The translations under genes and the position numbers were made by a program. A stretch of DNA of 64,000 bases from Engraulis encrasicolus (Eukaryota > Chordata > Actinopteri > Clupeiformes > Engraulidae). The stretch lies in contig NC_085872.1 in assembly GCF_034702125.1 (NCBI RefSeq), positions 27,657,634-27,721,633 of the forward strand, in the 5' to 3' direction. Shown here one piece after another: positions 54,001 to 64,000 of this stretch. Each line of letters begins with the position of its first letter. Position 1 is the first letter of the stretch. Below the pieces are notes generated by a model. That model was not told the DNA's origin, did no database searches, and saw only the letters and a list, made by a program, of their open reading frames with translations.

Positions 54001-57000
54001 TTTCCATCCAACCATCTATGTGTACATTTCCAATCTCAAGATTGACTCTTTTCCCTCTTTCAGTTTAGTCTTGTTAGAAATACTCTTGGAATACAATCAA
54101 ACTGCGATGCATGTGGCACTGTAATCAACATGTGATAACCCATTTTTATGATCATTACTGAATTCCACAGTCATTTGCATGGATAGTTTTTCTAACCCAA
54201 ACATGATGATTTAAAACATGCTGTGGGTAGTTTCAGCCTTGACTACTTGGTAGTTGTTGTATAGGTGTGGGTTCCATGCATGTGTGGTGGAAAGTGAAAT
54301 GACATAAAAATGTTCAAATGTCAAAATAGGAGTGCACAATGTCCATGTTTAAACTCTCAAGATTACATGGATTTAACAATTAGTACTTATGTACTTCATA
54401 TTCTGAAAATACGCAATTACCAAACTCTACCGTGAAGGTAAGTCCGACAGTATCGATCATGGTTCTATTTATTGCGGACCTCTGGTAAAGGGATTCTATA
54501 TCCACATAAGTAAGTCTTCAACATAATTAAACACAATCAATAGTCTTTAGGCTTTAAACATGAATGTGCTACTCCAGAATGGTTGATATTTTATCACAGA
54601 TCAGCTAGTTTACCCTGTTCTTTATAGATCCTTCTGCCCTTTCACAGAAATAAAATCGCTTTATTTCACTGTACTGTAAGCCATAATAGTTGATAGAGTT
54701 TTTTAGCTTAAGTGTATTATGCTTTTGCACCGTATTCTAAATGATTTGTCCAAATCCCCAGTGGACTGGCAGGATGATGCTGACAGAAAGGAGGAAACAT
54801 TGGCAATAGTGTCTGATCTCCTTGGCTTTAGTTGGACTGGTAAGTCTTACTTACAACATATTTTGATGTGACAAGCAAGATCTACTGTTGCTTTAAACTA
54901 TTTACTCTGTTGATGGAGCCACTATACTACATCAAATCATCATTGTATAGACTAGATTATGGCATTAATTGTACAGCATACACTCAATATGCTATATTTG
55001 TATGACAACAGAGCTGGCCAAAGAGTTGGAGTTCAACGAGGATGAGATCCAGGTGGTGCGATCGGAGAACCCGAACTCCCTGCAGGAGCAAAGCCAGGCC
55101 CTGCTGCAGCGCTGGGTGGAGCGGGAGGCCAAGCATGCCACTGGTGACTATTGGAGCTGGAGTTTTACCTCCATCAATGCCCGTTACTGTTTGTCTAGAC
55201 AGCTGAAATCCTTTGCATGCATTATTTTTTAAAAACATATCAGAGACTAGGTGTAATGTTTTTTTTCATGTAAAATAACCTTACTTGCCTTTGACTTCTA
55301 TGCCCACAGAGGATTGTTTGATTAAAAGGCTCACCGCCATCAATCGTATGGACATAGTCCATCTCCTTGAGACACAAATGAACAAGTCAGTCCAGGAGCA
55401 GACCTCAAGGACCTATGCAGAAATCGAGAGGACACTGGATCACAGTGAAGGTACAACAGAAAGACAAGTTTCTGATTTAAAACAAAATCATGTCAATGTT
55501 TTTTCTTAAAGGAATTATCCAGAGCCGTTTTTGCATGTCTGGGAAGAAATATGATCACCTGAGAGCAAAATCATGTCAATTTGGTGTCTTTTGAGAACGT
55601 TTGATCATATTGCTGTTTAGCTGTGTTATATGTTTGACGCAGTCATTCGGCAAAACACAACATTTAAAGCTTTTACAGTTCCAAATAACATCACACTTAC
55701 ATGTACCTCATAGTATGTGGAGGGTCCCTAAACACAAACCGAAGTGGTCTGAGCTCCAGCTTCATGTGTTTGGAAAAGGTTTGCAGATTAAGATTAAGAT
55801 TAAGAAGATTATGTGTCCATCATGTTACCTATCACTTGGTTATGTGGCGCTATTCCGACATGTCGCTATTCCGACGTTAATGTCTATTGTCGGAATACCG
55901 ACACGTTTTCCACCGTCCGCCACTATTCCTACATGCCACTATTCCGACATCCCTAACCTTAACCCTAACCCTAACCCTAACCCTAACCCCTAAAAAGTGT
56001 TGGAATAGCGGCATGTCGGAATAGCGCTATGTCGGAATAGCGATTGCCCCCCCTATCACTTATCCTCTCCTGTCTTTGTTTCTGTTTCCAGCTCTATCTT
56101 CAGTTCAGGAAGATGTAGACAGCCCTCGGCTGGTAAGAAGGGTGGAGTCCTCACAGCGGCAGCCCCCGGCGGTGTCCGAAGAGGACCTGTCTGTGGCCTC
56201 CCTCCTGGATGTACCATCCTGGTCAGAGCCTCTGGGCCACACACGCTCTGAAAGCATGCAAGGAGATCTCCTAGAGGAGTTGGACATTACACAGTATGTA
56301 AAAATTCACACAAAAAAACACACACACTCAAAAGAAATGAATAATTTTGGTTTGATGAAAGATTTATTGTAACAAACCAGCTTTGACTCTGCATTGTTTC
56401 TCATTTCTTCTGTAGGGATTTTATCACCAACCCTTGGGCTGCTCGAGAAATAAGGGCTGGGTCATCAAATGAGGGCCTTGACAGACAAGTAAGTCAACTG
56501 CATTGTACAATTATCGCTGAACCCTCTATGATGATGATGATGTCACAAGTGAACAATCCACAAACACAAAAGGTGTCCCCAATGCAAAAGAAAAGTCTCA
56601 TGGTAGACCTCACGGGGGCTGCTGCTGCTGCTGCATTTGTGCCATGGGACTACACTGAACATGGAGTTCAGCCTGGGTTGACTACACACCCCCACACTAC
56701 ACAGGCTGATGTGGGTTTTATTGAATGCAGCTCTAAGTCAACAATCCCCAGCCCTGGAAATCCCCTTGTGCCTGTGTCTATTCGAGACTTTGGTCGTTGT
56801 CTTACAGAGTCAGACCATGCTGAGACTGATTTCAGTGACCTGTTAGCTGAACTGCGAGGGGACCTTGTTGACATGAAGGCAAGCACAGTAGATTCTGAGG
56901 ATGGTCACTCAAGTTCATCCGAAACTATTTCTTCAGCTAGCGAAAAGGAGTTTGACTCTGTTAGGCACAATACCCAATTTTCCACAGTTTTTGTGAAAAA

Positions 57001-64000: not shown

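Follow-up and report, generated by a model that had tools for sequence, protein, structure and literature searches.

The closest described counterparts of the exon reported here are the giant exons of ANK2 and ANK3 (440/480 kDa ankyrins), very long alternative coding exons that are rich in Ser and Glu, apparently disordered and flanked by the UPA region and the death domain. According to the part of PMC5135030 available to us, chordate long exons precede the death domain, whereas those of protostomes and echinoderms (including Drosophila Ank2 L/XL and nematode exons, some with repeat arrays) follow it, a site that is regarded as the older condition, that of invertebrates; long exons lose homology quickly, intron insertion has been invoked for the multiple long exons of zebrafish AnkB, and vertebrate giant exons contain ∼25% Ser plus Glu and >55% Ser, Glu, Thr, Asp, Lys and Pro. 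As far as the available text of PMC4449188 goes, the exons of mouse Ank3 that follow the death domain are alternatively spliced, and exons 46–49 encode an obscurin-binding domain and occur in truncated muscle forms without the membrane-binding domain. Among the papers listed in searches of an open-access library, we found no description of a fish giant exon after the death domain, although the long-exon positions tabulated in the supplement of PMC5135030 may include one.

In the window, that is, the whole stretch of 64,000 nucleotides of Engraulis encrasicolus that was analyzed, one giant exon lies on each side of the death domain. The upstream one is a classical giant exon of 2,461 codons and resembles the giant stretches of other fish ankyrin-2 proteins (32–64% in the best local match). 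The downstream one, here called giant exon 2, is likewise very long (no less than 7,585 bp between 56416 and the window edge), but it follows the death-domain exons instead of lying between UPA and the death domain, and it is repetitive. Its location is that of the Drosophila, nematode and echinoderm long exons (PMC5135030, available part), from which it differs in lineage and to which it is likened by position, not by sequence. Mammalian exons after the death domain are alternatively spliced beside an obscurin-binding segment (PMC4449188 and PMC12812942, both in part), a setting that giant exon 2 may share; however, Ank3 exons 44–49 measure 54 to 679 bp (PMC4449188, available part).

Exon, frame and position can be read directly from the letters. 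Five exons, from 54762-54839 to the one that begins at 56416 and reaches the window edge, are each preceded by AG, and the first four are followed by GT; joined from 54762 onward, they encode 2,713 residues with 0 stops. The preliminary description had claimed that the death-domain and tail exons splice in phase into an open frame of 2,528 codons (56417–64000, 0 stops), and this was borne out with exact coordinates. Over the same interval, stops number 77 and 262 in the other forward frames and 224, 103 and 103 in the reverse ones, and the probability of 2,504 stop-free codons computed from local base composition is ∼10^-61. The stop-to-stop frame of giant exon 2 starts at 56387. At gathering scores, Rfam gave no match anywhere in the window; Pfam on both giant stretches gave only matches below the curated cut-offs of the families, and Tandem Repeats Finder (default score, longest period 500) reported no array inside giant exon 2, unlike self-comparison. 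The intron before the linker exon carries a telomere-like (CCCTAA) tract of 6.5 copies (55951–55989), flanked by two arrays of 16-bp units in opposite orientation (55919–55950 and 55998–56042).

The death domain of the window matched human ankyrin-2 best (4d8o, E 3.1e-30), followed by ankyrin-3 (6.8e-24) and ankyrin-1 (5.4e-19). Pairwise death-domain identity was 82–88% to proteins mostly named ank2a by their sources and ∼51–69% to ankyrin-2b-like proteins; one 88% relative, P0093, carries the source name ankyrin-3-like. The exons of the death-domain region (Table 1) are similar in size to mouse Ank3 exons 41–43 (75, 132 and 144 bp; PMC4449188, available part).

A predicted protein model of 7,977 residues, P0153, found in a search with a Megalops relative, is encoded by the window gene: it agrees with the window at 117 of 118 residues of the death domain, at 109/109 of the linker and at 2,504/2,504 of the extension, and matches to exons of its first part run through the window from 2901 onward. 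It carries PF00023, PF12796, PF00791, PF17809 and PF00531, which we take to be ankyrin repeats, ZU5, UPA and death domain, all in one gene. After residue 4142, where the window ends, similar repeats continue to residue 7977. Since P0153 extends 6,339 residues past 56488, the extension exceeds the classical giant exon (46404-53786) in size. The exon end and the downstream exons beyond the window are taken from this predicted model, and, if no intron falls past 64000, the exon would by extrapolation end at ∼75,505. The expectation that gene models would miss the extension failed for P0153, which has it letter for letter, though related models are often detached or misnamed.

Table 1 Features of the ankyrin-B locus in the window (P0153, predicted protein model encoded by the window gene)
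Feature	Position	Strand	Basis
Classical ankyrin-B giant exon, upstream of the death domain	46404..53786	+	open frame 46322-53866; donor CAAG|GTATCA; putative acceptor position, placed from the sequence
Death-domain exon, 78 bp	54762..54839	+	AG/GT borders, in phase; death domain matches human ankyrin-2 chain 4d8o_A
Death-domain exon, 132 bp	55012..55143	+	AG/GT borders, in phase; 4d8o_A match
Exon completing the death-domain region, 141 bp	55310..55450	+	AG/GT borders, in phase; 4d8o_A match
Linker exon, 202 bp	56092..56293	+	AG/GT borders, in phase; with the short exon 109/109 residues (100%) in P0153
Short linker exon, 73 bp, in a form that uses the proximal donor	56416..56488	+	TAG acceptor, CAA|GTAAGT donor
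Proximal donor GTAAGT, Val-Ser in the giant form	56489..56494	+	donor letters; Q/K/R/H-V-S junction in related models
Giant exon 2, in-window part, 2,504 codons, runs past the window edge	56489..64000	+	0 stops; identical to P0153 residues 1639-4142
Conserved 17-residue segment within the extension	56783..56833	+	pattern shared with teleost proteins, P0153 included (counts in text)
Repeat array A, period ∼570 bp, copies 91-94% identical	57788..59497	+	self-comparison; dN/dS 0.71-0.73, intervals include 1
Repeat array B, higher-order copies 77-89% identical, units ∼65 residues	60059..63865	+	self-comparison; dN/dS 0.34-0.45, intervals <1; unit spacing and consensus

The unit consensus of array B begins SDIEYSElCL.ELF..dR.wSPDS and recurs about every 65 residues. 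In the P0153 extension, 286 Ser-Pro/Thr-Pro sites were counted against a shuffled mean of 134. Ser plus Glu account for 25.8% of the extension, and Ser, Glu, Thr, Asp, Lys and Pro together for 49.2%, compared with 53.3% in giant exon 1. The single-sequence fold of 400 residues had a mean pLDDT of 36, a low confidence that is compatible with, and weakly suggestive of, a disordered extension. SxIP motifs bind microtubule-end proteins in giant ankyrin-G, and the P0153 extension has 47 of them (shuffled mean 5); a reading based on these motifs was dropped, as most come from one repeated unit with a preceding Asp and Syngnathus ank2a (P0138) has 1. Near the start of the extension, a segment of the type RDFGxxLxExxxAExDF was identified in 77 of 171 teleost proteins and 0 of 46 others, with a pattern that was widened after the matches had been viewed (the narrower version gave 41/217). 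It is common to ank2a-like and ank2b-like proteins, and therefore the giant form is probably older than the split of the two teleost ank2 genes.

The preliminary description had proposed a search with the translated exon, and relatives were indeed found in many teleosts: 101 proteins among 7,975 scored candidates with the window frame and 119 among 1,523 with an Acanthopagrus ankyrin-2b protein (itself included). The organisms named in both lists, in which some rows are unnamed, are presumably all teleosts. Among 152 proteins compared, 151 matched the extension and 62 the death domain, whereas 90 lacked the latter; 49 models comprised death domain, extension and a conserved C-terminal segment, in that order in 47 (the exceptions being P0095 and P0101). 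It should be noted that such counts refer to isoform clusters, several per species, and are not independent observations. In 43 of the 47 ordered models, 2,685–4,771 residues separate the death domain from the C-terminal segment; the remaining four have 179, 610, 738 and 877. As had been proposed, the window gene has a second giant extension past the death domain, distinct from the classical giant exon; teleost ank2a-like and ank2b-like proteins have it as well. Its description as independent is appropriate in the sense that some models have the extension without giant exon 1, including P0153, in which no match to giant exon 1 was found; giant exon 1 was also matched in 15 of the 49 complete models.

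The proposed location at the C-terminus, on the other hand, has to be revised. As 47 of the 49 models have the extension ahead of the conserved C-terminal segment, it represents an insertion into the linker and not a new C-terminus. The C-terminal segment of a relative matches human ankyrin-1 residues 1784–1862 (E 3.1e-9), so that in relatives the extension is bounded by the death domain on one side and, on the other, by a conserved segment with homology to the ankyrin-1 C-terminus. In the window gene, this segment would lie downstream, beyond the window, as in relatives; we infer it from them because P0153 ends without it. Models P0026, P0027, P0033, P0048, P0051, P0059, P0078 and P0091 start at the Met of a conserved MTDF(G/E) segment, which may be either a real internal start or a prediction artefact. 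In Syngnathus scovelli ank2a (P0140-P0143, P0146-P0152), the distance from the death domain to the C-terminal segment ranges from 2,777 to 4,519 residues, a spread that suggests predicted splicing inside the extension.

The near end of the insert is marked by a strong donor, CAA|GTAAGT at 56488/56489. It falls between codons (56417–56488 being 24 whole codons), so that 56416-56488 is also a complete 73-bp exon, and when GTAAGT is read through, as in the giant form, it encodes Val-Ser. Same-species models with and without the insert are cut exactly before this dipeptide: in gar isoform X6, GEQ is directly joined to EIAEELG, whereas X1 has GEQ-VSPPV, and Sander short forms read SFKQ-APPQ against SFKQ-VSPFF in the long form. 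Syngnathus scovelli models have EEQ-VSTL, compared with EEQ-IST in S. typhle. This recurrence is directly visible in the models: a Q/K/R/H-V-S junction lies 60–145 residues past the marker in 56 of 87 marker-bearing ray-finned models, compared with 0 of the 37 such models from turtles and one lungfish. Short isoforms are among the 31 ray-finned models that lack the junction, as are some giant ones, for example, Paramormyrops. At the far end, an element P-I-V-x-E-P-E-E ... DDESLEREIAEELG is common to lungfish, bichir, gar, paddlefish, bowfin and Megalops, with a weaker version in Parambassis; with the near-end junction, it shows the insert flanked by two old landmarks. As the junction recurs from bichir and gar to teleosts, 56488 is likely an alternative 5' splice site, and the simplest reading of the protein models would be that the intron behind it turned coding in early ray-finned fish.

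The length of the insert outside teleosts was assessed by a search aimed at other ankyrins, which returned 439 proteins among 1,037 scored; the best 120 of 439 were used, and these included no shark, coelacanth, amphibian, bird or mammal. Among the matches listed, the death domain and the C-terminal segment are separated by 182–194 residues in turtles, 165 in lungfish and 119–120 in two Acipenser and one Huso. The gar isoforms have 119 (X6) versus 847 (X1) residues, and values of 700 and 803 were found in paddlefish, 957 in bowfin and 727 in eel; other shorter teleost models have 357–769. In bichir, ∼945 residues lie between the DHSEG marker and the EREIAEELG element. Overall, the linker spans 119–194 residues in sturgeons, the short form of gar, lungfish and turtles, 700–957 in the long forms of gar, paddlefish and bowfin, and ∼2,700–4,800 in teleost giant models. 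The bowfin and gar inserts match at 26–27%, and the teleost-like repeat SPDSPxP had a count of zero in both (three counts checked).

Could the frame be a chance or decaying open repeat within an intron? The stretch is repetitive and biased in composition, as such a repeat might be, and dN/dS between repeat pairs was 0.73 and 0.71 in array A, with bootstrap intervals that include 1; in array B it was 0.42, 0.40, 0.45 and 0.34, with intervals below 1 (the six pairs overlap and are not independent). The preliminary description had counted a ratio near 1, with stops in related species, as evidence against the exon; a ratio near 1 is not what four of the six pairs gave, the other two being compatible with it. 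These four pairs, the stops in the five other frames (77–262) and the teleost relatives, together with the segment common to ank2a-like and ank2b-like proteins, indicate that the extension is coding, and we find a noncoding repeat barely credible. A different view agrees with ours on coding status and differs on the carrier protein: the extension would mostly belong to transcripts without ankyrin repeats, whose start lies within it or a short way upstream, comparable to the truncated muscle forms of ankyrin-G. Such transcripts are suggested by the 90 models without a death domain, of which 45 contain both the extension and the C-terminal segment, by the several models whose first Met falls within the extension, in or close to the conserved MTDFG segment, and by the use of mouse Ank3 exons 46–49 in truncated forms (PMC4449188, available part). 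However, death domain, extension and C-terminal segment occur together in 49 models, P0153 unites ankyrin repeats, death domain and extension, and internal-Met starts can be prediction artefacts; we consider it unlikely that truncated transcripts are the main carriers.

With regard to origin, the extension might be the remnant of an early bilaterian giant exon located after the death domain and not new growth. Its position equals that of the protostome and echinoderm long exon, but the published account places the chordate long exon before the death domain (PMC5135030, available part for both), and the linker has only 165–194 residues in lungfish and the listed turtles and 119–120 in sturgeons, Huso and one gar isoform. 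A loss of the extension in sarcopterygians is possible, with sharks, coelacanth and amphibians outside the comparison. We regard such inheritance as quite improbable; the short lungfish and turtle linkers disfavour common descent and suggest an origin separate from the invertebrate exons after the death domain. The extension could also be imagined as the other half of the classical giant exon, separated from it by intron gain, a process proposed for the multiple long exons of zebrafish AnkB (PMC5135030, available part). This is hardly conceivable for the present locus, where three exons of the death-domain region and the linker exon stand between the two giant exons, and relatives have both giant stretches, one on each side of the death domain.

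The reading that we prefer, with a probability of roughly 0.7 for the whole, is that the window contains an ank2a-like ankyrin-B gene of a teleost in which two giant exons are coding. Giant exon 2 would lie in the linker between death domain and C-terminal segment, be included by donor choice and yield a spacer. The pre-mRNA would face a choice at 56488: use of the donor would give the short linker, whereas ignoring it would add Val-Ser and ∼6,300 further residues. The product would be a second, mostly disordered spacer with repeats of ∼65 residues rich in Ser-Pro sites and acidic-hydrophobic motifs, which might keep the membrane- and spectrin-bound body of ankyrin-B apart from its C-terminal tail and allow tethering at a distance, in striated muscle in the first place and in neurons in the second. 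Regulated use of the donor, the spacer role and such tethering are what we infer. Given the match to the C-terminus of ankyrin-1 and the exon use in mouse Ank3, a long, flexible and phosphorylatable spacer appears to be the most likely product, although the odds of a spacer or scaffold role are about even. Striated muscle may tentatively be named as the main site of use, with rather doubtful confidence, and neurons are an unlikely main site.

A possible evolutionary course, which as a joint proposal falls somewhat short of even odds, would be as follows. In the ray-finned ancestor, two small linker exons of ankyrin-B were separated by an intron that turned coding. The donor survived in two roles, as in-frame Val-Ser and as an alternative splice site still in use, and the other end of the intron joined the ancestral exon that came next. 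Growth by repeat duplication from ∼800 to >6,000 residues would then have been convergent with the invertebrate site and would have produced a near-megadalton ankyrin-B with two independently spliced spacers flanking the death domain.

Giant ankyrin exons as such are already known; what appears to be new is one in an unexpected place and lineage. The extension can more than double the size of ankyrin-B, and the predicted proteins reach 7,000–8,000 residues or more, their tail set apart by a long spacer from the spectrin-bound body. Given a giant exon after the death domain in ray-finned fish, the two giant-exon sites are not mutually exclusive, and our data suggest that new giant spacers can originate. 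Arranged by length, the inserts of bichir, gar, bowfin and teleosts let the growth of a giant exon be followed. Finally, the results give a warning on annotation. The source names of relatives include ankyrin-2b, uncharacterized protein, mucin-like and cardiomyopathy-associated protein 5-like, and some fish proteins under the last two names are pieces or carriers of an ankyrin extension. Misnamed pieces or carriers are P0037, P0050, P0078, P0108, P0011, P0080 and P0093, and the misnames comprise mucin-3B-, mucin-17-, mucin-2- and mucin-16-like, cardiomyopathy-associated protein 5-like and ankyrin-3-like.
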